Assembly (NCBI GenBank): GCA_036504735.1
Contig: DASXUQ010000005.1
Location: 527,377 to 591,376, forward strand
Origin: a bacterium
Lineage (GTDB): Bacteria; Electryoneota; RPQS01
Length of the DNA: 64,000 nucleotides
Direction: 5' to 3'
Each line of letters starts with the position of its first letter. Position 1 is the stretch's first letter. Below the pieces are notes generated by a model. That model had not been told where the DNA came from. It did not search any database and saw only the letters and a list, made by a program, of their open reading frames with translations. Both the position numbers and the translations under genes were made by a program. Positions 7,044 to 24,573 of this stretch are shown in pieces.

Positions 7044-7994
7044 TCAGTGCGTGATTTCGAGAAGGCCGGTTGTATCCTGCGCCACGATCCGGTTGCCGCT
7101 GGCGGGAATGGCCATGGTGCCCGAATGGGTGATGCGGACGGGAGATTGCCCCGGGGCGGCGGTGAACAGACCATCGAGCCGGTCACCGGACAGTGCGGTG
7201 AAGACGAATCCATTGCCCTGCGGGAAGGGAGCGGGCGCTGCGCCGCCGCCAATGGTGGTGGGTGCCCCGGACACACTGGCTGTGGAGATGGAAGGATTGC
7301 CGTTGGTCGTAGAACCGTACACGAGGGTTCGGGAATCACCCAGCCAATAGTAGACCAGCACTCTTCCTGCGACAGTGTCGCGGGCGGTAGTTTCCACGTT
7401 GGCGACCACCAGTGTACGCCCTTCAATGCCGCCGGGGACCAGATAGGCAATCCGGCTGCCGTCCGGTGACACTTCGGGAGATGTTCCTCGAATGCTGAGG
7501 GGTGTTGGTTCCGTGCCGCTCAAAGGAATCTGAACGATGTCGGAATTGCCGGTGCTGTCTTCAGGACCCGCACAGACAATCCCTCCCGTACCGGGCAGGA
7601 ACCGGGGATGCGAACCGCGATCCCACAATCGGGTCAGTGCGGTCGGCGCGTCCGGATGGCCCAGATAAATGCCGGCATTGGCGCCGCCCGGTGCTCCCGG
7701 GGCAGAAAAACAAAAACGTGTTCCGTCATTGGACCACGCGTAATCGGCACGGGCATCCGGGCCGCTGGGATTGATCAAGGTGGCCGCGCCATTACTCAGC
7801 AGATAAAGTCCCGCAGGGGACTCTTCCTGCATGAACAAAATGGCGTTGCTGGTCGGAGATGGCACCGGATGTGATCCGCGAGGCCAGATCTGCTGCACAG
7901 TCCAGAGAGACGGCGCGGATTGTGTCGAAGACTTGCTGCAGCCGAGGCAGAAAATGAGCACCATAGCAAGCAGAACCGCAACCATCTTACTCAT
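7044..7994 (-). CDS. PD40/TolB-like beta-propeller lipoprotein
   Basis: 316 residues. The N-terminus (MSKMVAVLLAMVLIFCLGCSKSS) is a lipoprotein-like signal with the probable lipidated cysteine at the 'CLGC' end, although C-L at -3/-2 is not the best lipobox. The rest is a run of short WD40-like (PD40) blades, e.g. 'GSHPVPSPTSNAILF', 'DARADYAWSNDGTRFCF', 'GTSPEVSPDGSRIAYL'. Such propellers bind proteins or ligands in the periplasm. No enzyme motif is visible. It is transcribed alone, towards mlaF, and is separated from it by the terminator. Confidence 0.75.
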   Translation of the reverse strand: MSKMVAVLLAMVLIFCLGCSKSSTQSAPSLWTVQQIWPRGSHPVPSPTSNAILFMQEESPAGLYLLSNGAATLINPSGPDARADYAWSNDGTRFCFSAPGAPGGANAGIYLGHPDAPTALTRLWDRGSHPRFLPGTGGIVCAGPEDSTGNSDIVQIPLSGTEPTPLSIRGTSPEVSPDGSRIAYLVPGGIEGRTLVVANVETTARDTVAGRVLVYYWLGDSRTLVYGSTTNGNPSISTASVSGAPTTIGGGAAPAPFPQGNGFVFTALSGDRLDGLFTAAPGQSPVRITHSGTMAIPASGNRIVAQDTTGLLEITH

Positions 7995-8178
7995 GTTTCA
8001 CTACCCCGTAGCTAATCTTAGTTATCCAACACCTAATCGCGGTTTTCCCGGCAGAAATTCACGTGATAGAGGGAGTTTTTCAGCATCTCAAGAGGCATTC
8101 CTCCTCTCTACTATTAACTTATCCTCTATTATACGCGAAATTCACATGCTTATCTCATAAATTTAAGTCCGTTATGAG

Positions 8179-8199
8179 TTATCCACATAGTGTGGATAA
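8179..8199. promoter_or_regulatory. inverted pair of consensus DnaA boxes
   Basis: TTATCCACA (8179-8187), 3 nt, TGTGGATAA (8191-8199): two perfect matches to the strong DnaA box, facing each other. They lie in AT-rich sequence, 13 bp before the mraZ -35. Two 7/9 matches on the plus strand occur at 8022-8030 (TTATCCAAC) and 8119-8127 (TTATCCTCT). Confidence 0.7.
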
Positions 8200-8212
8200 A
8201 CAAATAATTGAC

Positions 8213-8241
8213 TTGACTATCGGAGACGCTTGTCCTATCTT
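8213..8241 (+). promoter_or_regulatory. promoter of the dcw cluster (mraZ)
   Basis: TTGACT (8213-8218), 17 bp, TATCTT (8236-8241). A second TTGACT overlaps it at 8208-8213 but has no good -10. Between here and the ATG, TTGG/GTGG-like pentamers recur every 10 bp (8241, 8261, 8271), which might be MraZ boxes; that part is weak. Confidence 0.6.
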
Positions 8242-8279
8242 TGGTACGGTTTCCCAAAGATTGGCAGAAAGTGGAGCGA

Positions 8280-8756
8280 ATGCCCATACGAGGCAAGATA
8301 CCTTTTCTCGGACACTTCTCCGGACTGATTGACGACAAGGGAAGATTGTCTATCCCCGCTGACTATCGGCATGCATTGCCGGAAGACAGTGGGGGGACCA
8401 TTGTCCTCACGCCCGGCAGCAGCGAGTTCCTGAATGTCTTTCCTCTGGATCTATTCAACAATGTCTGGGAACAGGCGGACTCCAACTCCCTCGGTTTTGC
8501 CAGTGATGACAGTCTGGCGCGAGATACCGCTCTGTTGAGCGAAGCCGTCTACCGCGAAATTGACAGCCAGGGCCGCATCACCGTGCCGCAGAGTCTGCTG
8601 AAGCAGGCGGGCATTGGCCGCGAGGTGGTGTTTATGGGCCGCTGGAACCACTTTGTGATCTGGGATGCCCAGGCTTTCGAAGCCTATCGCACCGGTCACA
8701 AGCTGACGGCAGGAGATGCCTGGAAAACTCTACTTGATCACCGCCAAAAGGCCTGA
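8280..8756 (+). CDS. mraZ: MraZ, transcriptional regulator of the dcw cluster
   Basis: 158 residues with two SpoVT/AbrB-like half domains, each with the DxxGR signature: 'LIDDKGRLSIPADYR' and 'EIDSQGRITVPQSLL'. MraZ forms ring-shaped oligomers and binds repeats upstream of its own gene to control division and wall genes. I chose ATG 8280 with GGAG just upstream (8273-8276); a TTG at 8241 would add 13 residues but lies on the -10. First gene of the cluster. The family identity is clear. Confidence 0.93.
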   Translation: MPIRGKIPFLGHFSGLIDDKGRLSIPADYRHALPEDSGGTIVLTPGSSEFLNVFPLDLFNNVWEQADSNSLGFASDDSLARDTALLSEAVYREIDSQGRITVPQSLLKQAGIGREVVFMGRWNHFVIWDAQAFEAYRTGHKLTAGDAWKTLLDHRQKA

Positions 8757-8759
8757 ACC

Positions 8760-9083
8760 ATGGGACTGCACGCACACATCCATCAGCATGATCGCGACGT
8801 AAGCATTGCCTTGCAGGGCGAGTTCCGGACTCCGGAACTGACGCAGCTTGAGGCGATTATCTCCCATTTTCATGGTCGCGGCTGCCGGAAATTTGTGCTC
8901 GATCTACGCCACGTCGCCCCGCTTACCCCCGCCGCCGAAGCTACTTTGAACTGCCTCCTCGGGCAACCCGGCCTCTCGTCTGACAAAGCATTAAGAGGAA
9001 GCGCCATCCGCCTTTTGGCGGAATCTCCCGCAGCTCAGCCGCAGACGGGCTGCGGGAGCCTCTTTTTTTCCGCAGCGTCATAA
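8760..9083 (+). CDS. STAS-like domain protein inserted in the dcw cluster
   Basis: 107 residues starting 3 bp after mraZ. The pattern 'DVSIALQGEFRTPELTQLEAIISHFHGRGCRKFVLDLRHVAPLTPAAEATLNCLL' matches a STAS (anti-sigma-factor antagonist) fold: strand, helix, then a 'VLDL..V..L' strand. Where phosphorylatable antagonists have D-S-S-G, this protein has L-T-P-A, so phospho-switching is unlikely. A gene here is not part of the classical dcw order. Its last 20 codons run through a terminator hairpin (9025-9069), so the C-terminal 'AAQPQTGCGSLFFSAAS' may be selected as RNA rather than protein. The partner is unknown. Confidence 0.6.
   Translation: MGLHAHIHQHDRDVSIALQGEFRTPELTQLEAIISHFHGRGCRKFVLDLRHVAPLTPAAEATLNCLLGQPGLSSDKALRGSAIRLLAESPAAQPQTGCGSLFFSAAS
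9025..9069 (+). terminator. intrinsic terminator/attenuator inside the STAS gene end
   Basis: CTCCCGCAGC (9025-9034), 14-nt loop, GCTGCGGGAG (9049-9058), then CC and a T-rich tract with seven T at 9063-9069. It lies between mraZ-STAS and rsmH, on the coding strand, and overlaps the end of the STAS reading frame. It could limit transcription into the rest of the dcw cluster. Confidence 0.75.
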
Positions 9084-9103
9084 TTTAGTAACTTTGGCTC
9101 AAT

Positions 9104-9124
9104 TGTCCAAGTGTTTCTTGGACA
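9104..9124. promoter_or_regulatory. 8-bp palindrome before rsmH
   Basis: TGTCCAAG, 5 nt, CTTGGACA: a perfect inverted repeat in the gap after the terminator. It overlaps the upstream GTG (9111) that could start rsmH, which argues against that start. It may be a protein operator or an RNA hairpin in the rsmH leader. Confidence 0.5.
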
Positions 9125-9203
9125 TCTCGACATTTCTCATCGCCGTTTTTGTAGTCCTACGTACCTCAACGGGCCACACAGAACCGGTTCCTCTCCACCC
9201 CCT

Positions 9204-10139
9204 TTGACTGACACCTCTTTCGAACAGAATTACCACAGGCCTGTGCTGGCTGAGCCTGCGGTGGATCTGCTGGTGACCAATCCCGACGGCATCTACCTCG
9301 ATGGCACGGTCGGGGGAGGCGGTCACAGCCTGCTGATTGCCAAAAAACTGTCGAAGAGAGGCACTCTGATCGGTTGCGACCGGGACGCCGACGCCATTGC
9401 CCAGTCGCGCAAGGTGTTGCCCGAGACCGCAGTACTGATCCAGTGCCGGTTTTCGGAGATCAAAGAGGCAACAAGAGAGTTCACGCAGCGCGGTGTCTGG
9501 GGGGTGCTGCTTGACTTAGGAGTTTCCAGCTTTCAGTTGGACACGGCAGAGCGCGGTTTCAGCCACAGATTCTCTGGACCGCTGGATTTGAGAATGGACC
9601 CTTCGAGAGGAGAAACCGCGGCGGATCTGCTGAAGGATATCGACCTGAGCGATCTTACCCGGATAATTTTTGCCTACGGCGAGGATTCGCAGGCACGACG
9701 CATCGCCAAGGCCATTCTCGAAACCCGCGCGCGGCATCCCATCGAAACCACGGACGACTTGGCGCAGATCATTGATAGAAGTGTTCCGGCGACCCGCGCC
9801 AAGAGTCTGGCCCGAGTGTTTCAGGCCCTGCGGATTGCCGTAAACCATGAGCTTGAAGAATTAGAGCAAGGGCTGGTGGATTGCTGGGATATGCTGATTC
9901 CGGGAGGACGACTGGTAGTGATCAGCTACCATTCTCTCGAAGATCGGATTGTGAAGACCTTTATGAGGTCCAAAGCCGAGCCACCGCAACCACCTGCCTA
10001 TTTGCCAATGGCACCGACTGAACCACCGGAAGGAAAGCTGCCCTTTAGAAAGCCGCTCCTCCCTTCTGAGACCGAGATCGACGAAAATCCCCGCGCTCGC
10101 AGCGCTAAACTTCGGGTCGTAGAAAAAATCCTATCCTGA
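9204..10139 (+). CDS. rsmH: 16S rRNA (cytosine1402-N4)-methyltransferase RsmH
   Basis: About 311 residues from TTG 9204, close to the usual RsmH length. It uses S-adenosylmethionine to N4-methylate C1402 in the ribosomal decoding site. Clear family blocks: 'YHRPVLAEPAVDLL', SAM-binding 'YLDGTVGGGGHS', 'LLDLGVSSFQLD', 'RGFSHRFSGPLDLRMD', 'ALRIAVNHELEEL' and 'YHSLEDRIVK'. No ATG and no convincing ribosome site precede it. GTG 9111 would add 31 non-conserved residues and overlaps a palindrome, so I prefer TTG 9204; both are uncertain. ftsL follows after 2 bp. Confidence 0.9.
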   Translation: MTDTSFEQNYHRPVLAEPAVDLLVTNPDGIYLDGTVGGGGHSLLIAKKLSKRGTLIGCDRDADAIAQSRKVLPETAVLIQCRFSEIKEATREFTQRGVWGVLLDLGVSSFQLDTAERGFSHRFSGPLDLRMDPSRGETAADLLKDIDLSDLTRIIFAYGEDSQARRIAKAILETRARHPIETTDDLAQIIDRSVPATRAKSLARVFQALRIAVNHELEELEQGLVDCWDMLIPGGRLVVISYHSLEDRIVKTFMRSKAEPPQPPAYLPMAPTEPPEGKLPFRKPLLPSETEIDENPRARSAKLRVVEKILS

Positions 10140-10141
10140 CC

Positions 10142-10543
10142 ATGGCCTACGCATCGCAATCCTTACCGTCTTCCCTGTATCGTCCCCGCAAGCTGCCGCG
10201 AGTTCTCCGGCGGCAACTTCCTGTAGTATGGATCGTAGCAACCCTCGTTTGTGTAGGGCTGCTGGCGGTGGCGGTGACATGGCGCAACCTGACGTATGAA
10301 AAGCTCTCGCTGGATGTAGGCCGGCAGCAGATTGCCATTCAGCAATTGAATAAGGAATTGGTGCAGCTCAGCGGTCAGGTGGAGACAGAAGCCTCCTATA
10401 CGAAGGTTTCGCGCTGGATGCGAGACAGGCATGGATGGTGGACGCGCACGAACCATGTGGGGACCATCGTCATTCCCGAAGCGGAATTGACTCCGGCTGC
10501 CCGTGAGGACGCCAGACTGCTCGGAGCGCCTGAGCATGAGTGA
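10142..10543 (+). CDS. ftsL: FtsL-like septum protein
   Basis: 133 residues: a basic cytoplasmic tail (RPRKLPRVLRRQ), one membrane helix (about 26-47, VVWIVATLVCVGLLAVAVTW) and a periplasmic coiled coil (YEKLSLDVGRQQIAIQQLNKELVQLSGQVE). Sequence identity in this family is low; the call rests on topology, size and position between rsmH and ftsI. FtsL works with FtsB/DivIC and FtsQ to activate septal wall synthesis. It overlaps ftsI by 8 bp. Confidence 0.8.
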   Translation: MAYASQSLPSSLYRPRKLPRVLRRQLPVVWIVATLVCVGLLAVAVTWRNLTYEKLSLDVGRQQIAIQQLNKELVQLSGQVETEASYTKVSRWMRDRHGWWTRTNHVGTIVIPEAELTPAAREDARLLGAPEHE

Positions 10544-12554
10544 AGGGCACCGCAAAGTCCCGCGGGAACGTTTTCTCGCCTGCGTCCTGTTGGCGATCTT
10601 GTGCGCCTTCGGCATGCGGTTGGTGCAGCTCCAGGTCTTCCAGCATGGCCAGTGGCAGACCATTGCCCGCAACCAGTCGATGACGACCAAGTATCAGAAG
10701 CCAAGCCGCGGGGAAATTCGGGACAAGAACGGCCTGACGCTGGCGGTGACGCTTCCCTTAACCTACGCCGTAGGATACCGCCCGCAGTACGCGCTGGACA
10801 TGAATGCCCTCGCAGGCACGCTATCCACCTACTTGCAGAAACCGAAGCGCGAAATGCGGGAGAAGCTCGAGACCACCAGCTTCACCTACCTTGCGCGCCG
10901 TGTGGATTGGCAGACCAAGGAGAAGCTGGAAGCGCTGAACCTGTCCTGTTTGCAGTTTGATGAGGAGCCGCGCCGCGCCTATCCTTCCAATACCTATGCC
11001 TCCACCGTGGTCGGATTTACCAACCGCGACGGCAAGGGCATGGAAGGCGTGGAAGGGTTCATGAATGATGAACTCTCCGGCGAAGGCTATCAGGAGCTAT
11101 GCCGCGTTGATGCCCTGCGCGAAGCGTCTGCCGCCCTCTCCCCCGCCCCGGTGGAGACGAAGGGCGCGGACATTACTCTGACGATTGACCTGCAGTTGCA
11201 GACCATTGTCGAAGAAAAGATGCGCGAAGGACTGAAGGATCGCACCTTCGAGCGCGCGTGCGCGGTAATGGTAGATCCGCAGACCGGCGCCGTTCTCGCG
11301 CTGTCCACGTATCCATCGTTCGATCCCAATCAACCGGGCGACGGCAAAGCAGACTATCGCCGCTGCTGGCCTGTTACCGATGTGTACGAGCCGGGCTCCA
11401 TCTTCAAGATCGTGGCGATTTCCAAGGCGCTGGAGAGTGGACGGTTCAAGCGGACGTCGCTGATCAATTGCGAAGGCGGCAAATATTCCGTCGGCGGCAT
11501 TACGATTCACGATTCCCACGCGCATGGCACCATCTCCGTGGATGACGTGCTGGCGTATTCAAGCAACATCGGGACGGCGAAGATCGCGCGGGCATTCAGT
11601 CCGGCTGAGATTTATGACAAGGTGCGTGCGTACGGTTTCGGCAACCTGACTCTGGTGGGAATTCCCATGGAGCAGCCGGGCGAAGTTCCGGTGCCGGAAC
11701 GGTGGAGCGGTTCGACGCAGGCGACGGTGGCCTTCGGGCAGGGAATATCCTGCACCGCGTTGCAGGTTACGATGGCCTACGCGGCTGTAGCCAACGGCGG
11801 CCTGTTGATGAAACCGCGTCTCGTGCAATCCGTGCGTTTCCCGTCGGGAGCGCACACCGATTATCCGGCGGAGATTATCCGCCGCGTGATGCCGGCGGAG
11901 ATCGCCTCGCAGATCAATGAGATGCTGGTGAATGTCGTCGAGTACGGCACAGGCACCAAAGCCAAGGTGGACGGCATGCGCATCGCGGGCAAGACCGGCA
12001 CTGCCGAGAAGGTCGACTATGTGCACCACACCTATTTTAAAGGACGCTTCATGTCGTCCTTTGTCGGCTTTTTCCCGGCGGAACACCCGCAATATGTGCT
12101 GCTGATTACGGTGGATGACCCGCGCGGTGAGCACTACGGCGGCTCGGTGGCAGGACCGATCTTCAAGGCCATTGTCGAAGACATGCGCATGATGTCCACG
12201 CCGAGTCCCGCGCCTTCTCCGTCCACGACTCCTGTACCGCTGGAAATGACGGTGAACCACAGTACGCAGAAAGACGCGTCGTCTGGCCGCGTGCAACCGC
12301 CGCGAACTGCCGCCTATGTACCGGTTTCGCTGGCTTCTGTAACCACCTATCAGAGTCAAACCACAACGGATTCGACGCTGGTAGCCGTGCCATCCCTGCA
12401 GGGATGGTCGCTGCGGCCGGCCGTCGAGGAACTCTCCAAGCGGAAGTTGAGTTTCAAACTCCTTGGAAGCCGCACCGTTGTGACTCAATTTCCTCCCGCC
12501 GGAACGATGGTTCCCGTCGGCACAGTCTGTGAACTGTACGGCGTTACGGAATAA
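10536..12554 (+). CDS. ftsI: septal peptidoglycan transpeptidase FtsI/PBP with PASTA domain
   Basis: 672 residues. Single N-terminal membrane anchor (RFLACVLLAILCAFGMRLVQLQV), a PBP dimerisation/linker domain, then the transpeptidase with S288-x-x-K291 (GSIFK), S342-S-N344 and K486-T-G (AGKTGTAEK). After a Pro/Ser/Thr-rich linker, the last about 60 residues (VAVPSLQGWSLRPAVEELSKRKL...) form one PASTA domain, which is absent in enterobacterial FtsI but common in Gram-positive class B PBPs. It cross-links septal peptidoglycan and pairs with FtsW, encoded downstream. ATG 10536 has GGAG upstream (10522-10525); the GTG at 10503 is rejected. Confidence 0.93.
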   Translation: MSEGHRKVPRERFLACVLLAILCAFGMRLVQLQVFQHGQWQTIARNQSMTTKYQKPSRGEIRDKNGLTLAVTLPLTYAVGYRPQYALDMNALAGTLSTYLQKPKREMREKLETTSFTYLARRVDWQTKEKLEALNLSCLQFDEEPRRAYPSNTYASTVVGFTNRDGKGMEGVEGFMNDELSGEGYQELCRVDALREASAALSPAPVETKGADITLTIDLQLQTIVEEKMREGLKDRTFERACAVMVDPQTGAVLALSTYPSFDPNQPGDGKADYRRCWPVTDVYEPGSIFKIVAISKALESGRFKRTSLINCEGGKYSVGGITIHDSHAHGTISVDDVLAYSSNIGTAKIARAFSPAEIYDKVRAYGFGNLTLVGIPMEQPGEVPVPERWSGSTQATVAFGQGISCTALQVTMAYAAVANGGLLMKPRLVQSVRFPSGAHTDYPAEIIRRVMPAEIASQINEMLVNVVEYGTGTKAKVDGMRIAGKTGTAEKVDYVHHTYFKGRFMSSFVGFFPAEHPQYVLLITVDDPRGEHYGGSVAGPIFKAIVEDMRMMSTPSPAPSPSTTPVPLEMTVNHSTQKDASSGRVQPPRTAAYVPVSLASVTTYQSQTTTDSTLVAVPSLQGWSLRPAVEELSKRKLSFKLLGSRTVVTQFPPAGTMVPVGTVCELYGVTE

Positions 12555-12564
12555 GCTGCTGTTG

Positions 12565-14043
12565 ATGACTCCTGCTCCGAAAAGACTCCATGATCTGACA
12601 GTTGAACTGCGGGACTGCCGCCGGTTCGGCGACGGCGATCCGCTGGTCCACTCTCTGGCCTATGACTCCCGCGCCGTCCAGGAAGGCAGCCTGTTTGTCG
12701 CCCTGCGCGGCCTCAAAGCGGACGGCGCTCAGTTCATTCGGGATGCCATCGCACGCGGCGCCGCCGCCATCGTTGCGGACACCGCGCCGGAAAGTGGATT
12801 GCAGGTTCCCTTCATTAGGGTGCAGGACGGACGCAAAGCCCTCGCCGAGTTGGCGTGGAGCTTCTATGATCACCCCGAACGTTCTTTGACTCTGGCCGGC
12901 ATCACCGGCACCAACGGCAAGACGACGGTCGCCACGCAGTTGCGCGCGGTGCTGGATTTTGCGGGACATCGCACCGGGTTGATCGGCACGTTGGGCATCT
13001 ATTATGGAGAGGTCGCCGCTGAATCGCCGCGCACCACGCCCGAGTCCGCCGACCTTGCCGCTCACTTTGCCGCAATGCGCGCGCTGGGATTTACTCACGC
13101 CGTCATGGAAGCGACATCCATCGGCATTGATTTGCAGCGCACATGGAAGCTTCCCTTCCGTGCGACGGTCTTCACCAATCTCACGCGCGACCATCTCGAC
13201 TATCACGGTTCCGTGGAAGCCTATCGCGATGCCAAACTGCGGTTGTTTCAGGAGCAGGAACCGGATGGCGCGGCGGTTATTAATCTGGACGATCCGGCGG
13301 CCAACGATTTTGTGAAGGCTGCACGGGCCAAGGTGCTGACCTATTCTCTGTTGACGAATGCGGATTTCCGCGCAACGAACCTCCGGTTGACCCGCCAGTC
13401 CACGAGCTTCGATCTGGTGACCGCCCACGGTACACTGCCGATTGAAGCTCCACTGATCGGACACTTCAACGCACAGAATCTACTCGCCGTTATTGCCACC
13501 GCCTTCGCCCTGGGAGTTCCCCTTGAGATCACAAAGCAGGCGCTCGCGCAAGCCGTCCCTGTCCCTGGCCGTGCTGAGATGGTGCGATCATCCGCGCCTT
13601 TCACGGTCGTCGTGGATTACGCTCACACACCCGACGCTCTGGAAAAGATCCTGAGCACCCTTCAGGCTTTGGAGCACAACCGCATCTTCACGGTGGTTGG
13701 CGCGGGCGGTGACCGTGACCACGGCAAGCGCCCGCTGATGGCTGAAGTCGCGCACCGTTTGAGCGACCAATTGTTTTTGACCAGCGATAATCCGCGCAGT
13801 GAAGATCCCGAAGTCATTCTGAATGAGATGGCCGCCGGACTCAGCGCAGAGAATCATTACTTCCGCAATGCCGACCGGCGACTGACGATTGAGACGGCTC
13901 TGGCGGAAGCACGCAACGGTGACATTGTCTTGATTGCAGGCAAGGGCCATGAATCCTATCAAGAGATTCAGGGCGTCAAGCATCCGTTTGATGATCGGCT
14001 TGTGGCCGCAGCGTACCTTTCGCGCGCCGGGTACGCACTATGA
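12565..14043 (+). CDS. murE: UDP-MurNAc-L-Ala-D-Glu:meso-diaminopimelate ligase
   Basis: 492 residues. Mur-ligase P-loop 'GITGTNGKTTVATQ', then 'RTTPESADL', the central 'NLTRDHLDYHGSVEAYRDAKLRLF' block and the C-terminal 'DNPRSEDP' motif. The DNPR motif reads meso-diaminopimelate rather than lysine, which predicts Gram-negative-type peptidoglycan. It adds the third residue of the stem peptide. ATG 12565 is 11 bp after ftsI; a GTG at 12529 inside ftsI gives a less likely longer form. It overlaps murF by ATGA. Confidence 0.95.
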   Translation: MTPAPKRLHDLTVELRDCRRFGDGDPLVHSLAYDSRAVQEGSLFVALRGLKADGAQFIRDAIARGAAAIVADTAPESGLQVPFIRVQDGRKALAELAWSFYDHPERSLTLAGITGTNGKTTVATQLRAVLDFAGHRTGLIGTLGIYYGEVAAESPRTTPESADLAAHFAAMRALGFTHAVMEATSIGIDLQRTWKLPFRATVFTNLTRDHLDYHGSVEAYRDAKLRLFQEQEPDGAAVINLDDPAANDFVKAARAKVLTYSLLTNADFRATNLRLTRQSTSFDLVTAHGTLPIEAPLIGHFNAQNLLAVIATAFALGVPLEITKQALAQAVPVPGRAEMVRSSAPFTVVVDYAHTPDALEKILSTLQALEHNRIFTVVGAGGDRDHGKRPLMAEVAHRLSDQLFLTSDNPRSEDPEVILNEMAAGLSAENHYFRNADRRLTIETALAEARNGDIVLIAGKGHESYQEIQGVKHPFDDRLVAAAYLSRAGYAL

Positions 14044-15425
14044 GTCTTCCTACGATTGGCTGGTTCGGTAATATTGTCGGAGCACATTTCCCATCTTTAT
14101 TCTCCGATTTCTCCCTCGGCCCGATTTCCATTGACACGCGCACGCTGAAACCCGGTGACACGTTTTGGGCAATTAAGTCCAGCCGTGACGGCCACGACTT
14201 TGTCCCTGCGGCGTTCACGTCCGGTGCCAAAGCGGCGGTGGTGAATTTCGATTGGATGCAGTCGCCGGATGCTGAACCTTACCGCGAACGGTTGATCGCC
14301 GTTCCCGAAACAACCCTCGCGCTGACTCACGCCGCGCGGGCATGGCGCAATTCGCTGCCCTTTCCGCAGATCGGCATCACCGGCACCAACGGCAAGACGT
14401 CCACAAAGGATATTCTGCTGCGGATCCTGTCGGTGAAACGGAAGGCGACGGGGACGCCGGGGAATTTCAACAATGAGATTGGTGTGCCGCTGACGCTGCT
14501 GGCTACGCCGTCGGATTGCGATGCAGCTGTGATTGAAATGGGTGCGTCTCATCCGGGAGAAATTGCGGATCTTTGCCAACTGGTTAGGCCCACGCACGGC
14601 CTGGTCACATCCATTGGCCGGGCGCATCTGGCGGGCTTCGGCACACTCGAAGAAATTGCGCGCACTAAAGGCGCGCTGTATGATGCCGTTGCCGAAAACG
14701 GAATTGCTTACGTGCCGACGGATGATGCTCTTTGCCTTACAGAAGCGACAGAGTGCCGGCACAAAATCGGCTACGGCTTTTCCGGTAAGCCTGCAGATTG
14801 GAAAGCAGAATTCTACCAAGGCACAAAGCTGACGTTTGATTCGTCCGGTTGTGCGCGGTTTGAATTTGAACGTGTGGAGATCGAACTATCGGTGCCGGGC
14901 CGTCCGGCTGCGCTGTCCGCGCTGGCGGCACTGACTATTGCGCGCAACTTCGGTCTTTATGCCGAAGAGGTCCGCAAGGTCATTCAGGCTTGGCAGGGCG
15001 TCGGCGGGCGGGTAAGCATTGAACGGTTAGGCGGGATTACCGTGATGGATGATTCTTACAACGCCAACCCCATGAGCATGCGCGCCGCACTGGAGACGCT
15101 GTCCTTCCTTCCGGCCCGGAGACACGTGGCGATTCTGGGCGACATGAACGAACTGGGAAGCGACGCCGAAAGCGAGCACCGTGCGCTGGGCCGGGATCTG
15201 AAACAGTTTGATCTCTCGCTGAGTTTATTTGTAGGGGCTTTCGCCCCGCTGGCGGCAAGCGAGGCGCGGGGGCAAGGCATCGAAGCCAAGGCGTTCGCCA
15301 CCTATGAAGAGTGTGATGCGGAATTGGCGACACTGATTTGTGCTGGCGATGCGGTGCTGGTCAAGGGATCGCGGTCCATGCGCCTTGAACGGGCTGTGCA
15401 GAAACTGAAAACGTTATATACCTGA
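14040..15425 (+). CDS. murF: UDP-MurNAc-tripeptide--D-alanyl-D-alanine ligase
   Basis: 461 residues. P-loop 'GITGTNGKTSTKDIL', 'FNNEIGVPLTLL', 'EMGASHPGEIADLCQLVRPTHGLVTSIGRAHLAGFG' and 'MDDSYNANPMSMRAALETL' are all typical of MurF. It joins D-Ala-D-Ala to the UDP-MurNAc-tripeptide in the cytoplasm. The ligase that makes D-Ala-D-Ala (ddl) is not in the window. Start by ATGA overlap with murE; ends in a TGATG overlap with mraY. Confidence 0.95.
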   Translation: MSLPTIGWFGNIVGAHFPSLFSDFSLGPISIDTRTLKPGDTFWAIKSSRDGHDFVPAAFTSGAKAAVVNFDWMQSPDAEPYRERLIAVPETTLALTHAARAWRNSLPFPQIGITGTNGKTSTKDILLRILSVKRKATGTPGNFNNEIGVPLTLLATPSDCDAAVIEMGASHPGEIADLCQLVRPTHGLVTSIGRAHLAGFGTLEEIARTKGALYDAVAENGIAYVPTDDALCLTEATECRHKIGYGFSGKPADWKAEFYQGTKLTFDSSGCARFEFERVEIELSVPGRPAALSALAALTIARNFGLYAEEVRKVIQAWQGVGGRVSIERLGGITVMDDSYNANPMSMRAALETLSFLPARRHVAILGDMNELGSDAESEHRALGRDLKQFDLSLSLFVGAFAPLAASEARGQGIEAKAFATYEECDAELATLICAGDAVLVKGSRSMRLERAVQKLKTLYT

Positions 15426-16543
15426 TGCTCTACCATCTCTTTCTGCCGCTTCGCGATGTCATCAGCGGTGCCAATCTGTTCCGTTACCTCACGTTTCGCT
15501 CCGCGATGGCGGCTGTGTTTGCTCTGCTGATCTCGTTTGTGGTCGGCCCGTGGATGATCCGCACCCTGCGCAAGCACCAGATCGGCGAGGAAATCCGAAC
15601 AGACGGACCGAAGACCCACTTGAGCAAGGCCGGTACCCCGACCATGGGTGGGCTGATGGTGCTGGTGGCGGTAGCCGTACCTACCCTACTCTTTGCCAAT
15701 CTGACGAATTTCTATGTGCTGCTCACACTGCTGGCGTTTCTGTGGATGGGCGCAGTCGGATTTCTCGATGACTATCTGAAGGCCGTGCGCAAGACGAAGA
15801 AAGGGCTGGTTGCGCGCTACAAGCTGCTCGGGCAGTTCGGCATCGGAGCACTCATCGCCGCCTTCATTATGATCTACCCTGAGCTTTTCGGCCATAATTT
15901 CGCGGCGCAGTCGACGCTCACTACCCTGCCGTTCTTGAAGAACGTGATGTTCAATTTCGGCATTCTGTACCCGATCATTGTGCTGCTCGTGGTCACGGGG
16001 ACATCCAACGGGGTGAATCTGACGGACGGTCTCGATGGGCTCGCCATCGGTGTAACATCGATTGCGGCGGCGGCGTTTGCGGCGATCAGCTATGTCACCG
16101 GCAACGTGAAGTTCGCCGAATACCTCAATATCATCTACCTCGAAGGCGCCGGAGAGCTGACGATCTTCTGTGCGGCCGTGCTGGGTGCGGGTCTGGGGTT
16201 CCTCTGGTACAATGGCTATCCGGCGCAGGTGTTCATGGGGGACACGGGAGCGCTGGCGCTGGGAGCGGGTCTCGGCACGATGGCAATTCTGCTGAAGAAG
16301 GAATTCTTCCTCGTGGTGATCGGCGGCATTTTCGTGATCGAAGCGGTGAGCGTCATCATTCAACGGCTCTATTTCAAGTATACGAAGAAACGATATGGGA
16401 CGGGGCAACGGGTTTTCCTGATGGCTCCCCTCCACCATCATTTCGAACAGCTCGGCTGGCATGAGTCCAAGGTGGTCGTTCGTTTCTGGATCGTGCAGGT
16501 GTTGCTGGTTCTGGTCAGTCTTACGATGTTCAAGGTCCGCTAA
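15425..16543 (+). CDS. mraY: phospho-N-acetylmuramoyl-pentapeptide transferase
   Basis: 372 residues, about ten membrane helices. It makes lipid I by moving phospho-MurNAc-pentapeptide to undecaprenyl phosphate. Signatures: 'THLSKAGTPTMGG', 'GFLDDYLK', 'NLTDGLDGLAIG', 'WYNGYPAQVFMGDTGALALG' and the histidine box 'APLHHHFEQLGWHE'. It starts within the murF stop (TGATG) and ends within the murD start (TAATG), showing tight translational coupling. Confidence 0.96.
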   Translation: MLYHLFLPLRDVISGANLFRYLTFRSAMAAVFALLISFVVGPWMIRTLRKHQIGEEIRTDGPKTHLSKAGTPTMGGLMVLVAVAVPTLLFANLTNFYVLLTLLAFLWMGAVGFLDDYLKAVRKTKKGLVARYKLLGQFGIGALIAAFIMIYPELFGHNFAAQSTLTTLPFLKNVMFNFGILYPIIVLLVVTGTSNGVNLTDGLDGLAIGVTSIAAAAFAAISYVTGNVKFAEYLNIIYLEGAGELTIFCAAVLGAGLGFLWYNGYPAQVFMGDTGALALGAGLGTMAILLKKEFFLVVIGGIFVIEAVSVIIQRLYFKYTKKRYGTGQRVFLMAPLHHHFEQLGWHESKVVVRFWIVQVLLVLVSLTMFKVR

Positions 16544-17886
16544 TGGCTCTGGATTTGAATGGCAAGCGAGTCGCCGTCATCGGCGGTGCTCGCAGTGGGA
16601 TCGGCGCGGCGAAGCTTGTAAAACGGCTCGGCGGGTATGCGCTGGTTTCGGATACCAAGCCGGCAGAAGCCGTGTCGTCCGCGCTGGAGGAGCTGCGGTC
16701 GGCGGGAATCGAGATGGAGACGGGCGAACACCGGCGCGTGGTTACCGAGAATTTCGACCTCGTGGTGCTGTCCCCCGGTGTGGTTCCCAAGCCGGACCTC
16801 GAGCAGGCATGGCAGGCGAAGGGCATTCCCGTCTGGTCGGAGCTGGAACTGTCGGCACGGGCAAGCACAAACCGTTGGATCGGAGTGACCGGGTCCAACG
16901 GCAAGACAACGACCGTGCACCTGATTGCGGATATGTTGAAGCAGGCCGGTATGGACGTCATGATGGCCGGCAACGTCGGCACGGCGTGGAGTGGGCTGCT
17001 GCCTGCGCCGGAGTCCCGCGTGTTTGTGGTCGAGGTCTCAAGTTTCCAGTTGGAAACCTCGCCGACCGTGCACCCCCATGTAGCGGTGCTGCTGAATCTG
17101 TATGAAAACCACCTTGACCGCCACGGGACGATGGACGTTTATGCCGGGCTGAAGGCGAAGCTGTTTCGCAACCAGACCCCCGGCGACGTGGCGGTTTTCA
17201 ATGGCGAAGACATTCGAGTGCGGGAGATTGAGCGCGCTGTTTCAAGTCGCGTAGTAAGATTCGGCCTTTCGTCGGAGTTTGAGTTTTGGGCCGAACCGGA
17301 CCGCCTGGCGTGCCGTATCGACGGACGTGAACAGGCGCTCATTTCCCGGGCCGATTTCCCCCTGATCGGCCATCACAATGCGCTGAATGCGGCGGCGGCC
17401 TCCGCCGCGGCTTACAGCTTTGGCGCGGATCTGGACGCGATTCGCCGCGCGCTCAAAGAGGCGAAGGCCGTGGAGCACCGCATCGAGTACGTGACCACCC
17501 GCAACGGCGTGGCCTACTACAACGATTCGAAGAGCACCAATATGGTGGCCACCATGACTGCCCTGAACTCCTTCCAGCGCGACGTGATTCTGCTGTTCGG
17601 CGGCCGTCCGAAAAAGGAATCGTTCGCGCCACTGGCCACCCGGATTCCGTCGCCGGTCAAAAAACTGATTATTTTCGGAGAGGCTCTGCCGAAGCTGCAT
17701 GCGGATTTGCCCGCAGGCCTGCCGCTTGAAGAGGCGGCAACGATGGAAGCGGCGGTGTCACTGGCGCAGCGCGCGGCGCGCGACGGGGACACGGTGCTCT
17801 TGTCCCCCGGCTGCACGTCCTTCGACGAGTTCAACAACTTCGAAGAACGCGGCCGCATTTTCAAAGCTCTGGTCAAAGGCGCATGA
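16543..17886 (+). CDS. murD: UDP-N-acetylmuramoyl-L-alanine--D-glutamate ligase
   Basis: 447 residues. N-terminal dinucleotide-like fold ('GKRVAVIGGARSGIGAAKLV'), P-loop 'GVTGSNGKTTTVHLI', then 'VEVSSFQLE', 'NLYENHLDRHGTMDVY', 'NDSKSTNMVATMTAL' and the late 'LLSPGCTSFDEFNNFEERGRIF' block diagnostic of MurD. It adds D-glutamate to UDP-MurNAc-L-Ala. It starts by TAATG with mraY and overlaps ftsW by ATGA. Confidence 0.95.
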   Translation: MALDLNGKRVAVIGGARSGIGAAKLVKRLGGYALVSDTKPAEAVSSALEELRSAGIEMETGEHRRVVTENFDLVVLSPGVVPKPDLEQAWQAKGIPVWSELELSARASTNRWIGVTGSNGKTTTVHLIADMLKQAGMDVMMAGNVGTAWSGLLPAPESRVFVVEVSSFQLETSPTVHPHVAVLLNLYENHLDRHGTMDVYAGLKAKLFRNQTPGDVAVFNGEDIRVREIERAVSSRVVRFGLSSEFEFWAEPDRLACRIDGREQALISRADFPLIGHHNALNAAAASAAAYSFGADLDAIRRALKEAKAVEHRIEYVTTRNGVAYYNDSKSTNMVATMTALNSFQRDVILLFGGRPKKESFAPLATRIPSPVKKLIIFGEALPKLHADLPAGLPLEEAATMEAAVSLAQRAARDGDTVLLSPGCTSFDEFNNFEERGRIFKALVKGA

Positions 17887-19067
17887 CCACTCCCTTTGCC
17901 GGCACCCCTCAAACCTCCTCGAACCTCGAACGCCGCGCGGGCTATGATGTCTGGTTGCTGGCGGCAACCATCGGGCTCTGCATCTGCGGTGCGATTTTCG
18001 TGTGGACCTCCTCCGCCGCTCACGCCTGGAAGATGGCGGGCGGGGATTCGGCGACCATTTTCTGGAGCCATATCGGCAGAATGGGCTGGGGGCTGGTCTG
18101 CATGACCGTGCTCTCCTTTGTAGACTACCACATTCTAAACAAGCAGGCCGCACGCTTTGCGATCCTGCTGGCGCTCGCCGCCCTCGTGGCCGTCCTGTTC
18201 ATTCCCCAGCCTGCGGGCGCAACCGCCCACCGCTGGATCTACATCCGCGGCTTCAGTTTTCAGCCCGCCGAACTTGCCAAGTTCGCCCTCATTAACTACC
18301 TCGCCTTCCGCTTCGGCGAACACTTCGATGATCCCTTCTCTTCGGATCGCCGCAAGGTGTACGTCGGCTCGCTGATCATCTCGGTCTTCGTGATCGGTCT
18401 GATTCTGGTCGAGCCCAACCTGTCCATGACCGTGCTGGTTTTCGGCACGGCCGCTCTCCTCTTCTTCCTCTCCGGCATCCGCTTGAAGCCCCTGCTGATC
18501 CTGGCCGGAGCCAGCGCAATTCCGCTGAGTCTGGCGGCTTGGCTGACCCCGTATATGCGCAGCCGCCTCACGGCCTACGTGGACGGCATCGTTGATCCGC
18601 TCCGCGCCGGCTACCATGTGAAGCAGTCGCTCATCGGTATCGGGCATGGCGGCGTGACAGGGCTTGGCCTCGGCGGCTCAACCCAGAAGCATTTCTTCCT
18701 GCCCGAGCCCTACAAAGATTTCATCTTCAGCATCGTGGGCGAGGAGGCAGGATTGATCGGCAGCCTCCTGCTGCTGGCGGGCTTCGGGCTCTTTCTGGCT
18801 CGCGCCTGGAAGATCGCGCGTCACGCGCCGGACAGCTACGGCTATTATCTGGCGGCGGGAATCACCTGCGCGATTGCGATTTCCCTCACCATCAACGTCG
18901 GCGTCACCCTCGGTCTGCTTCCCGCGACAGGACAACCTTTGCCCTTCATCAGCTATGGCGGCTCTTCACTGATGATGACACTCGGAGCGGTCGGCGTCCT
19001 GCTCAATATTTCGAAACAGTCCCAGCGCCACTCCGATTCCCCACACCAACCCTACCGGTTCAAGTGA
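17883..19067 (+). CDS. ftsW: septal peptidoglycan glycosyltransferase FtsW
   Basis: 394 residues of the SEDS family with about ten membrane helices. Characteristic blocks: 'HRWIYIRGFSFQPAELAKFALINYLA', 'EPNLSMTVLVFGTAALLFF', 'GGVTGLGLGGSTQKHFFLPEPYKDFIFSIVGEEAGLIG' and 'LGLLPATGQPLPFISYGGSSLM'. FtsW polymerises lipid II at the septum together with FtsI. Starts by ATGA overlap with murD and ends by GTGA overlap with murG. Confidence 0.95.
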   Translation: MTTPFAGTPQTSSNLERRAGYDVWLLAATIGLCICGAIFVWTSSAAHAWKMAGGDSATIFWSHIGRMGWGLVCMTVLSFVDYHILNKQAARFAILLALAALVAVLFIPQPAGATAHRWIYIRGFSFQPAELAKFALINYLAFRFGEHFDDPFSSDRRKVYVGSLIISVFVIGLILVEPNLSMTVLVFGTAALLFFLSGIRLKPLLILAGASAIPLSLAAWLTPYMRSRLTAYVDGIVDPLRAGYHVKQSLIGIGHGGVTGLGLGGSTQKHFFLPEPYKDFIFSIVGEEAGLIGSLLLLAGFGLFLARAWKIARHAPDSYGYYLAAGITCAIAISLTINVGVTLGLLPATGQPLPFISYGGSSLMMTLGAVGVLLNISKQSQRHSDSPHQPYRFK

Positions 19068-20188
19068 GCGGTCCGCGAAACAACCCAGTTCGGGTCCTGA
19101 TTGCCGGAGGCGGCACCGGCGGCCATGTCTTCCCGGCCCTCGCCATTAAGCAGGCCATCGTGCGCAAGACTCCTCAGGCACAGGTGATCTTCGCCGGAAC
19201 CGCAAGCGGCCTTGAGGCCAAGGTGATGCCGCGGGAAGGCGAGACGCTGAAGACCTTCTGGATCTCGGGCTTCTCGCGCCGCCACGTGCTTCAGAATCTC
19301 CTGTTGCCCCTGAAGCTCGCCGTGAGCTTCTCGCAGAGCCTCAAGCTGCTGCTGTCCTTTCGCCCGCAAGTGGTCATCGGGACGGGTGGCTATGTGATGG
19401 GACCTGTTCTTTGGACCGCGCAGAAGCTCGGCATTCCCACCGTGCTGCAGGAGCAGAACTCGCATCCGGGCTGGACTACTCGAGCCCTCGCGCCGAAGGC
19501 CGGCATGGTCTGCCTCGGGTTCGAAGAGGCCAAGGCCCGGCTGGGCTCTGCGCGAATGGAGTTCACCGGCAACCCGCTGCGATTGTCCTTCCGGGAAGAG
19601 GACTCAAGAGAGGCACGCCAGAGATGGACTCTCGATCCGAGTCGCCGCACGGTACTCGTCTTTGGAGGCTCTGCGGGAGCGCGGTCGATCAATCAGGCCA
19701 TAGCGGGCGCGCTTGAAAATCTCACGGCGGTTTTCAATGTGATCTGGCAGACGGGCCGACTGGGAGTTCCGGAGTCCGCAAATCAGCATCTCATCGAAGC
19801 AGCGAATCACTCAGGGAATCTGAAAGTACTCGAATTTATCGATGATATGCCCGGCGCGTACGCGGTTTCGGACCTTGCCATCTGCCGCGCCGGAGCGATG
19901 ACGCTGGCCGAATTGGCTATGACGGGCGTCCCCGCGGTGCTGATCCCCTACCCTTTTGCCACCGATGACCATCAGACAGCCAATGCAAAAGCGGTCGAGA
20001 CACGCGGCGCGGCACTGTTGATTAAGGACGCTGACCTCACGTCACAAAATGTTTTTTCTGCTGTTCAGCATTGCATGAGTTCAGAAGAAGTATTATCTTC
20101 CATGTCTATAAAGATGAAGTCACTGGCCCATCCCGAAGCGGCGTCGCGCATAGCGGACATCGCGCTTTCTCTCACGGAGAAACCATGA
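19064..20188 (+). CDS. murG: UDP-GlcNAc:lipid I N-acetylglucosaminyltransferase MurG
   Basis: 374 residues, GT-B fold. N-terminal 'LIAGGGTGGHVFPALAI' glycine-rich loop binds lipid I; 'VLVFGGSAGARSIN' and 'CRAGAMTLAELAMTGVPAVLIPYPFATDDHQTANA' form the UDP-GlcNAc site. It turns lipid I into lipid II on the inner face of the membrane. GTG start 19064 overlaps the ftsW stop; no nearby ATG gives the conserved N-terminus. Confidence 0.95.
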   Translation: MSGPRNNPVRVLIAGGGTGGHVFPALAIKQAIVRKTPQAQVIFAGTASGLEAKVMPREGETLKTFWISGFSRRHVLQNLLLPLKLAVSFSQSLKLLLSFRPQVVIGTGGYVMGPVLWTAQKLGIPTVLQEQNSHPGWTTRALAPKAGMVCLGFEEAKARLGSARMEFTGNPLRLSFREEDSREARQRWTLDPSRRTVLVFGGSAGARSINQAIAGALENLTAVFNVIWQTGRLGVPESANQHLIEAANHSGNLKVLEFIDDMPGAYAVSDLAICRAGAMTLAELAMTGVPAVLIPYPFATDDHQTANAKAVETRGAALLIKDADLTSQNVFSAVQHCMSSEEVLSSMSIKMKSLAHPEAASRIADIALSLTEKP

Positions 20189-21582
20189 GCGCGCCCAAAC
20201 TCTTCCGCCGCGTCCGCCACGTGCACATGGTCGGCATCGCCGGCGCCGGCATGAGCGGCATCGCCGAGGTGCTGCTCAACATGGGCTTCGTGGTTTCGGG
20301 CAGCGACCTTCAACTGTCCGATATTACGAACCGCCTCGCCCGCCTGGGCGCCGTGATGCACGAGGGGCACACGGCGGACGCCATCCACGGCGCAGATGTG
20401 GTGGTATACTCGTCGGCGGTCAGGCCCGAGAATGTGGAGATTAGAGCAGCCCGCGAGCAGCACATCCCCACCATTCCCCGCAGTGAGATGCTGGCGGAGC
20501 TGATGCGGCTGAAGGTAGGGATCGGGGTTTCCGGGACCCACGGAAAGACCACGACGACGTCTATCGTCGGGGCCATTCTCCAGCGGGCGGAGCTGAATCC
20601 CACCCTGATCGTGGGCGGCATCGTAAGATCCCTGCAGTCGGGCGTGAAGATGGGCTCGGGAGAGTTGCTGGTGGTTGAAGCGGACGAGTTCGACCGCTCC
20701 TTCTTGAAATTGACCCCGACCCTTGCGGTGATTACGACCATCGAGCCCGAGCATCTGGACACCTATACGGATTTGGCCGGTGTGCAGGATGCTTTCGTGG
20801 AATTTGCCAACAAGGTCCCGTTCTATGGCAGCGTGATCGTCTGCGGCGACGAGCCGAACATTCAGGCGATCCTGCCCCGCATCAAGCGCCCGGTGGTGAG
20901 CTACGGGTTCTCCGAAGGCTGCGATTTCCGCGCCGTTCAGGTCGCCTTCAGCGGGCACCATGCGCGATTCAGCGTGGAAGGCGGCAAGTGCCAGGGGACG
21001 AGCTTTGAACTTCAGGTTCCGGGCCGTCACAATGTGCTGAATGCTCTGGCGTCGATTGCCGTGGCCGACGAGCTGGATGTGCCGCCGGATGTCACCCGCG
21101 CCGCGCTGGCCGAGTTTACCGGCGTTCACCGCAGGTTCGAGATCAAGGGCGAGTTCGACGGCGTGGTGGTGGTAGATGACTACGCGCATCACCCGACCGA
21201 GGTCGAAAACACTCTCCGAACCGCACGGACCTGCTGGCCGGACCGACGGATCGTCGCCCTCTTCCAGCCCCATCTGTTTACCCGCACCCGCGATTTTGCG
21301 GCCGATTTCGGGCAGGTGCTGCGCCTGGCGGATGTGATTCTGCTCACCGACATCTACCCTTCCCGCGAACGGCCCATCCCCGGCATCACGTCCGAACTGA
21401 TTGCCACAGCGGCACGGCAGGAGGGTGCGGACCGGGTTCAGATTTTGAGTGGCGACATCCCGGCGGCCAGCGTAAGGGCGTTGCTTCGGTCGGGCGATGT
21501 GTTGATTGTGATGGGGGCGGGCTCGATTACGAAGGTGGCTCACGAACTTTCCGCCGGGGCTCATGATTCCCGCGCGTTGTGA
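20185..21582 (+). CDS. murC: UDP-N-acetylmuramate--L-alanine ligase
   Basis: 465 residues. 'VHMVGIAGAGMSGIAEVLLNMGF' at the N-terminus, P-loop 'GVSGTHGKTTTTSIV' (the THGKTTT form is typical of MurC), 'VVEADEFDRSFLKL', 'EPEHLDTY' and 'VDDYAHHPTEVENTL'. It adds the first residue of the stem peptide. ATG 20185 has GGAGA at 20176-20180 and overlaps the murG stop as ATGA; the frame is open to 20071 but that extension is not conserved. The last 20 bp overlap murB. Confidence 0.95.
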   Translation: MSAPKLFRRVRHVHMVGIAGAGMSGIAEVLLNMGFVVSGSDLQLSDITNRLARLGAVMHEGHTADAIHGADVVVYSSAVRPENVEIRAAREQHIPTIPRSEMLAELMRLKVGIGVSGTHGKTTTTSIVGAILQRAELNPTLIVGGIVRSLQSGVKMGSGELLVVEADEFDRSFLKLTPTLAVITTIEPEHLDTYTDLAGVQDAFVEFANKVPFYGSVIVCGDEPNIQAILPRIKRPVVSYGFSEGCDFRAVQVAFSGHHARFSVEGGKCQGTSFELQVPGRHNVLNALASIAVADELDVPPDVTRAALAEFTGVHRRFEIKGEFDGVVVVDDYAHHPTEVENTLRTARTCWPDRRIVALFQPHLFTRTRDFAADFGQVLRLADVILLTDIYPSRERPIPGITSELIATAARQEGADRVQILSGDIPAASVRALLRSGDVLIVMGAGSITKVAHELSAGAHDSRAL

Positions 21583-22492
21583 ACGCCTGCTGCGGCAGAT
21601 AAGCTGCCCGGCCAAAGCGCTGGAGCCGCTGGCTCCGTTGACAACCTTCCACATCGGCGGTCCGGCGCAGATTCTGGCCGAAGTGCGAAGCACGGATGAC
21701 GTCGTTGAGCTGATGAAGCTCCTCACGCAGGAGCAGGTTCCGTTCTTTTACCTCGGATTGGGCTCGAACCTCCTTGTCTCTGACGCGGGATTCGACGGCG
21801 TAGTGATTCGGGCTACTGGCGAGCTTTGCCGGATCGAGCTTTCCCATGGCCATATCCGCGCAGGATCCGGCGCCAGACTGCTGGATGTGACGATTTTCGC
21901 CGCGGCGCAGGGTCTGTCGGGAATGGAAACTCTGTGCGGCATCCCCGGTTCGGTGGGCGGCGGGCTGTACATGAACGCCGGGGCCTATGGCGGGGAGATC
22001 GCCGACACCTTTGTCGCAGCCGACGCGCTGACCGCCGACGGTCGCATCGTCACCCTGACCAAGGACGAGATCGGATTTGGGTATCGCAGTGCCCCGGCTC
22101 TGCAAAATGTGCTGATTCTTGAAAGCCGCTACGCGTTAGCCAAAGGCGAACCGGGCAAAATCTACAGCGAAATGCGCCGCGTGTGGAAACTACGCCGCGA
22201 AAAGCAGCCGCTGGACTTCCCTTCCGCCGGGTCCATGTTTAAGCGGCCCCCCGGAGACTATGCGGGACGGTTGATTGAAGCGGTGGGCGGCAAGGGGTTG
22301 CAGATCGGCGGCGCCAGGGTGTCTCCCAAGCACGCCGGGATCTTTGTAAATGCCGGAAACGCCACGGCCGCAGACGTCACCGCACTGGTGCGCGAGATCC
22401 GCCGCCGTGTCTATGAGAAGTTCGGCATCATGCTCCAAACTGAGGTCAAGCCCGTTGGCTTTGAAGCAGACCCGTTTACCATCGAAAGCTGA
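21563..22492 (+). CDS. murB: UDP-N-acetylenolpyruvoylglucosamine reductase
   Basis: 309 residues, FAD-dependent. 'LTTFHIGGPAQIL', FAD-binding 'YLGLGSNLLVSDAGFDGVVI', 'GMETLCGIPGSVGGGLYMNAGAYGGEIAD', 'GFGYRSAPAL', and 'SAGSMFKRPPGDYAGRLIEA' with the catalytic serine of the GSxF motif. It reduces the enolpyruvyl group to form UDP-MurNAc. Placing murB after murC in a dcw cluster is common outside Enterobacteria. It overlaps the N-terminal codons of ftsQ. Confidence 0.95.
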   Translation: MIPARCERLLRQISCPAKALEPLAPLTTFHIGGPAQILAEVRSTDDVVELMKLLTQEQVPFFYLGLGSNLLVSDAGFDGVVIRATGELCRIELSHGHIRAGSGARLLDVTIFAAAQGLSGMETLCGIPGSVGGGLYMNAGAYGGEIADTFVAADALTADGRIVTLTKDEIGFGYRSAPALQNVLILESRYALAKGEPGKIYSEMRRVWKLRREKQPLDFPSAGSMFKRPPGDYAGRLIEAVGGKGLQIGGARVSPKHAGIFVNAGNATAADVTALVREIRRRVYEKFGIMLQTEVKPVGFEADPFTIES

Positions 22493-23288
22493 AAAGCGCC
22501 GCCGGACTCGCCGGGTTACGCTGATCTCGATCGTGGCCGTACTGCTGGTGGTGGGCACGCTTCCGCTCTGGAGCAACTGGATCGCACGGATGTGCGCGGG
22601 CCAATTGGTGGACTGGAGCAGCAGATTTCGGGTTCAACACGTGCTGATCTCCGGCAACCATGTGGTCGCCACGGAAACGATTGAAAAGCTGGCAAGCATC
22701 CCCAAGGGAACATCGCTGTTCAACGTGCCGGTTCACGCCGCCAAGACGCGGATCGAGAGCCAGGCGTGGATCAAAACCGTGGTGGTTCGCCGGCGGCTTC
22801 CCGATGCGATTGAAATCCGGATTGTCGAACGCGAGCCGATTGCCGCCGTGCGCAGCGACAAATTGCTGATTCTCACCTCCGACAGCGTGGCACTGGCGCC
22901 AGTCACCGATAACTGGGTCTGGGACTTTCCGCTGCTCACTCCTCCCCGCCCCGTCAGGTTAAAGGCCGGCGCGACGGTCAGCGACAGTTGCACGCTCGCC
23001 CTGTTACGGGAAGCCCTCAAACTGCACGCGGTCTCGAAAGACGCGTGGCACAACCTCAGCGAATTGTATTATGCCGACGGGCAAATGCACGCGGCACTCT
23101 CCCGTCCCGCCGTGGACGTCTTGCTTGGACACGGCACCAGCGAGCTGGCCTGGACCGGCGCATTGAAGATCCTGAATGGAAAAAGCTCAGCGGATCTGGC
23201 GCGCTATCAGAGCATTGACTTGCGCATACCTGGGAAGATTATTGTGGCAGAGGGCTCAGCGGCGACCGGAGAGCAAACACACGGATGA
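22413..23288 (+). CDS. ftsQ: FtsQ/DivIB-type division protein
   Basis: About 291 residues: basic N-terminal tail (KAEKRRRTRR), one membrane helix (VTLISIVAVLLVVGTLPLW), a POTRA domain ('FRVQHVLISGNHVVATETIEKLASIPKGTSLFNVPVHAAKTRIESQAWIKTVVVRRRLPDAIEIRIVEREPIA') and a C-terminal beta domain. It links FtsL/B to the rest of the divisome. The start is uncertain: ATG 22413 lies inside murB; TTG 22455, with GAGGT at 22442-22446, is equally plausible. Position between murB and ftsA supports the call. ddl, often found here, is absent. Confidence 0.87.
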   Translation: MRSSASCSKLRSSPLALKQTRLPSKAEKRRRTRRVTLISIVAVLLVVGTLPLWSNWIARMCAGQLVDWSSRFRVQHVLISGNHVVATETIEKLASIPKGTSLFNVPVHAAKTRIESQAWIKTVVVRRRLPDAIEIRIVEREPIAAVRSDKLLILTSDSVALAPVTDNWVWDFPLLTPPRPVRLKAGATVSDSCTLALLREALKLHAVSKDAWHNLSELYYADGQMHAALSRPAVDVLLGHGTSELAWTGALKILNGKSSADLARYQSIDLRIPGKIIVAEGSAATGEQTHG

Positions 23289-24544: not shown

Positions 24545-24573
24545 TAGGCAACGAGGTCAAGGAGAGGAAGCAC

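Follow-up and report, generated by a model that had tools for sequence, protein, structure and literature searches.

How bacteria tie division to the initiation of replication is still an open question, and the locus described here raises it in a specific form: does an inverted pair of DnaA boxes, found directly before the promoter of a dcw cluster, allow DnaA to regulate that promoter, or does it belong to an origin or to another regulatory system?

An inverted DnaA-box pair upstream of the promoter of a complete dcw cluster

The window, the whole 64,000-nt stretch of DNA that was analysed, comes from contig C5 in the genome of an uncultured bacterium (4.16 Mb, 19 contigs), whose closest named relatives are MAGs that carry the labels candidate division KSB1 bacterium and Calditrichaeota bacterium. 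The pair, TTATCCACA-TAG-TGTGGATAA (window 8179-8199), lies upstream of the mraZ promoter and consists of two 9/9 DnaA boxes, one on the plus strand (8179-8187) and the other, its perfect inverted copy, on the minus strand (8191-8199), separated by a 3-nt spacer. Together with a conserved 5' GAG, the left box forms the 12-mer GAGTTATCCACA (8176-8187, plus strand). The end of the dyad is separated by 13 bp from the -35 hexamer of a sigma-70-type promoter (8213-8241, plus strand; TTGACT at 8213-8218, 17-nt spacer, TATCTT at 8236-8241) that is found in the same place in relatives. The arrangement described in the sequence-only reading was therefore recovered in full. The dyad centre is near -59 relative to the probable transcription start and the whole dyad is upstream of the -35.

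The first gene of the cluster, mraZ (8280-8756, plus strand), was recognized by Pfam MraZ (E 1e-23), and the remaining dcw genes occupy 8760-25815 on the same strand. Their order after mraZ is a small ORF, rsmH, an ORF in the ftsL position, a PBP in the ftsI position, murE, murF, mraY, murD, ftsW, murG, murC, murB, ftsQ, ftsA and ftsZ. NCBIfam supports nine of these genes (rsmH, murE, ftsW, murG, murC, murB, ftsQ, ftsA and ftsZ), while murF, mraY, murD, the ftsL-position ORF and the ftsI-position PBP were identified by reading translations and from gene order. The cluster is complete from mraZ to ftsZ, ending at 25.8 kb, and since all its genes are on the plus strand up to 25815, the mraZ promoter heads all of it. 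The small ORF between mraZ and rsmH (8760-9083) looks STAS-like by eye and has no Pfam hit at E 0.001. On the other side, mraZ shares its intergenic region with a divergent PD40 beta-propeller lipoprotein-like gene (7044-7994, minus strand).

This intergenic region also holds a short inverted repeat, AGAGGC-N-CCTCT (8091-8107). Nearly all family members have similar GAGAGGC..CCTCTC repeats about 130-200 bp upstream of mraZ, where these are commoner than the DnaA box.

The perfect boxes exceed chance, unlike their surroundings

Dinucleotide shuffles of the 280-bp gap gave 0.005 expected perfect boxes against the 2 observed, and 0.013 expected inverted repeats with 9-bp arms against the 1 observed, so consensus DnaA boxes stand at this promoter beyond chance, as expected of a DnaA-regulated one. 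A search of the 4.16-Mb genome that allowed up to 2 mismatches gave no second copy of the dyad and no match for reversed controls. Perfect single boxes number 34 in the genome versus 20 for the reversed control word, indicating that the box motif is not abundant and answering the concern that the sequence might simply be common in this genome.

Two other features put forward in the sequence-only reading carry less weight. The 7/9 strings upstream are present, at 8022 (TTATCCAAC) and 8119 (TTATCCTCT), but chance alone would give the gap about one site with up to 2 mismatches and neither string is kept in relatives, and they were given no weight as DnaA sites. Likewise, the surroundings are AT-rich as described, with a GC content of 0.40, but this is ordinary for promoter gaps in this genome.

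The exact dyad was also seen in genome G020, away from mraZ and apparently within a gene. The neighbours of other intergenic perfect boxes in the present genome were inspected and showed no clear cell-cycle theme.

The replication origin lies between dnaA and dnaN on another contig

That the boxes might be part of a chromosomal replication origin, or the remnant of one, had been suggested on the basis of the DNA alone, and only the two perfect boxes and the low GC speak for such a role. Both dnaA and dnaN were located, together, on contig C9. The gap between them reads TTTTCCACA and then CTACTACTATTACGA, that is, a DnaA box followed by a DnaA-trio (TACTACTATTAC trio), and a similar box and trio arrangement recurs in nearly all genomes of the same family in which the dnaA-dnaN gap is readable. 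The trio is absent from the mraZ gap on either strand. At dnaA, the local GC skew changes from -0.05 to +0.10, and no comparable switch was found near C5:535 kb, in a noisy skew profile for which C5 was only sampled. The mraZ site was consequently rejected as an origin, and we regard this role as hardly conceivable.

One box is kept upstream of mraZ in part of the family

The conservation of the dyad in relatives was followed in the family, where mraZ was located in all 10 other genomes (11 family genomes with our own), the alignment being anchored on the -35 hexamer. In G009 and G006 (genus g7), the left box aligned gap-free with one mismatch each (GAGTTATCCACC and GAGGTTGTCCACA, respectively), and the distance from box start to TTGAC is 34 nt in both genomes as it is here. 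In G003 (genus g4), GAGTTATCCACAGAG is found at 43 nt from the -35, and in G008 (genus g3) the 12-mer GAGTTATCCACA is inverted and more distal, about 240 bp upstream. The left box is near the -35 in 4 of the 11 family genomes (our own, G003, G006 and G009) and no box was found upstream of mraZ in 6 (G001, G002, G004, G005, G007 and G010), of which G002 belongs to the same genus as G008. Only in this species is the right arm perfect, with partial arms (GTGAACA) in G009 and G006, and the perfect palindrome occurs in none of the other family genomes examined. Conservation as anticipated for the dyad is thus not observed for the palindrome and is observed in part, in other genera, for the left box.

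The rest of the mraZ gap has diverged while the distance from box to -35 was kept (34, 34, 34 and 43 nt). Within 300 bp before mraZ, TTNTCCACA occurs in 4 of 12 regions, with 5 boxes versus 0.14 expected, to which G003 is added. An unbiased k-mer listing returned GAGTTATCC/TTATCCACA among the few words common to at least 4 family members; the remaining words come from promoters and MraZ sites. On these alignments, the conserved element is one box in one place, and the palindrome is a local elaboration specific to this species.

We also considered whether DnaA boxes before mraZ are a common trait across phyla. This idea was dropped despite 9 hits in 80 mraZ loci versus 0 for the reversed word: at least 4 of the hits lie in MraZ-type AGTGG repeats and 3 come from the family members described above. 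Since an MraZ operator can look like a DnaA box, counts of this kind are misleading if the repeats are not inspected.

The 12-mer recurs outside the dcw promoter

The 12-mer GAGTTATCCACA occurs 17 times in 13 genomes versus 0 for its reversed form; of the two copies in G008, one is at mraZ, as is the single copy in G003. Copies also form most of a tandem with a 12-bp period inside lpxK (L050 9764-9784, G000:C5:933763-933783; also L255, L254 and L253). The sequence of this tandem is GAGTTATCCACAGAGTTATCCACA in the present genome and, at the corresponding place in G006, GAGTTATCCACAGGCTTATCCACA; its first box is kept in G008, G002 has a partial counterpart, and the tandem is absent in G001, G007 and G011. 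As the tandem is kept in an otherwise variable stretch of the LpxK protein (ELST..ST), the 12-mer seems to be under selection as DNA outside the dcw promoter too. Genomes of three genera, G007 (L277), G001 (L281) and G002 (L282), also have a perfect DnaA box at 190-310 bp before uvrA; no perfect box precedes uvrA in the present genome. The lpxK and uvrA boxes, unrelated to the dcw promoter, suggest that this word serves the group as a DnaA site.

The genome encodes one full DnaA, in which domains I, III and IV were found. Its motif GGRDHSTVIHA aligns with the motif by which domain IV of E. coli DnaA (1j1v) binds DNA, indicating an intact DNA-binding domain, as expected where DnaA regulates a promoter. 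Judged by motif identity, we infer that this protein binds the dyad. A second DnaA-type ATPase domain (PF00308) was noticed, fused to an N-terminal MshEN domain (L049 8048-9379, G000:C16). This protein has no Pfam hit to the DnaA DNA-binding domain, and related matches are found in G002 (L190) and G012 (L188).

DnaA regulation compared with other readings of the dyad

Could the dyad instead be an operator of MraZ? MraZ operators have been described for Mollicutes as direct repeats, AAAGTG[T/G] (PMC8475190), and MraZ boxes made of AGTGG repeats can contain TGTGGATAA; indeed, TGTGGATAA or TGTGGAAAA was found amid AGTGG repeats before mraZ in Patescibacteria and others (L061, L079, L080 and L088). 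However, MraZ sites are direct repeats at 10-11 bp, and the dyad is inverted and isolated. It is 40 bp upstream of the genome's own MraZ-like repeats (TTTGG / (TTCCC) / ATTGG / AGTGG in steps of about 10 bp; 8240-8275, plus strand), which span the -10 to the start codon of mraZ, show the spacing that the dyad lacks, are matched in pattern in relatives and form the probable MraZ operator. The conserved copies in relatives, moreover, read TTATCCACA on the top strand and are free of AGTGG repeats. An MraZ operator at the dyad is very unlikely on these grounds. An inverted repeat, CCTATCTTTGG / CCAAAGATTGG (8234-8264), was also noted; it overlaps these MraZ-like repeats as well as the -10 hexamer.

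Dimeric proteins typically bind sites of the kind of this perfect 21-bp dyad, and the palindrome could be the operator of another dimeric transcription factor that resembles two DnaA boxes, a reading with which the partial right arms (GTGAACA) of G009 and G006 and the enrichment of a GAG flank outside the classical 9-mer agree. Such a factor would have no regulon, since the dyad is unique in the genome even with 2 mismatches allowed; relatives preserve the left arm better than the right, single asymmetric copies are conserved at lpxK, and the 9-mer is the exact DnaA consensus, all of which make this explanation unlikely. It is also possible, if rather doubtful, that DnaA binds the site without controlling transcription, the dyad being one of several titration or reservoir sites on the chromosome and preceding mraZ only by accident. 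In B. subtilis, DnaA binds within genes in many regions (PMC4447404), and other conserved DnaA-box sites in the family, such as the lpxK tandem, are also inside genes, where promoter control is less obvious. Titration needs no constancy in the spacing between box and -35, yet this spacing was maintained while the sequence around it diverged.

We therefore favour the reading in which the dyad is a DnaA binding site regulating the mraZ/dcw promoter, to which we give a probability of about 0.62. The proposal that DnaA acts as a dcw transcription factor is the best supported, with one box conserved in position in other genera and a rare motif, although within the family the dyad itself is found only here. 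A separate oriC and a canonical DnaA in the genome were counted in its favour; the lack of the palindrome in other family genomes and of any mraZ box in 6 of 11 was counted against it.

A predicted model and its relation to known systems

A position fully upstream of the -35, like that of the dyad, is one that activators use. DnaA would bind both boxes, which, being inverted and 12 bp apart, would place two DnaA molecules on about the same face. Because the site is wholly upstream of the -35, DnaA would activate or modulate RNA polymerase from there and not act as a roadblock, and we infer that activation is more likely than repression, at about 60:40. MraZ, on its repeats between the -10 and the start codon, would give autorepression. 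The promoter would then respond to two inputs, autorepression by MraZ and modulation by DnaA from upstream, and the level of free or ATP-loaded DnaA, which changes at replication start, would set dcw transcription. Through regulation by DnaA, whatever its sign, the site may provide a link between replication and division in the cell cycle.

The orthologous division operon of B. subtilis has the order mraZ-rsmH-ftsL-pbpB. DnaA was reported to be bound in vivo at the promoter of this ftsL division operon (Goranov 2005, as cited in PMC8203912 and PMC11019786), as predicted here from the motif. Unlike in B. subtilis, the present site consists of two consensus boxes in perfect inverted arrangement before the -35, in a distant phylum, and it heads the full dcw cluster through ftsZ. 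When DnaA binding to oriC boxes 6 and 7 was blocked by CRISPRi in B. subtilis, RsmH and PbpB, two products of this operon, looked unchanged (PMC11019786), which we counted against DnaA regulation of dcw. In Caulobacter crescentus, DnaA is a transcription factor for a division gene, as predicted here: the ftsZ, gcrA and podJ promoters are DnaA-dependent, and DnaA binds the ftsZ promoter in vitro (PMC8203912); it acts there at ftsZ alone and not at the head of a cluster.

DnaA and MraZ inputs at one promoter, as predicted here, are known from E. coli mioC, where an MraZ site overlaps a DnaA box and two DnaA boxes repress until initiation (PMC4446571); unlike the present promoter, mioC adjoins oriC outside dcw, and here the DnaA and MraZ sites are separate. 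The E. coli DnaA boxes in ftsQA, upstream of ftsZ, are also near dcw genes, but they are inside genes and proved not to control ftsZ (PMC8203912), a warning case that we counted against DnaA regulation here. The concept is already known from B. subtilis ftsL and Caulobacter ftsZ, and the present candidate differs in its unusual geometry and its unusually complete target cluster. With a perfect box pair before a whole division cluster and one of the two boxes kept across genera, the locus offers a compact system in which to test how division is linked to initiation.

More speculatively, GAGTTATCCACA could mark a lineage-specific DnaA regulon that includes dcw and perhaps, via the lpxK tandem, lipid A synthesis, a tentative idea that we hold to be improbable as it stands. 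If true, two hard-wired sites would let one initiator couple the start of replication to the synthesis of both envelope and septum. Finally, two secreted-protein genes of this genome were seen to have a perfect DnaA box within, or 36 nt before, a promoter-like sequence (L207 ~590-625; L201 ~628-690).
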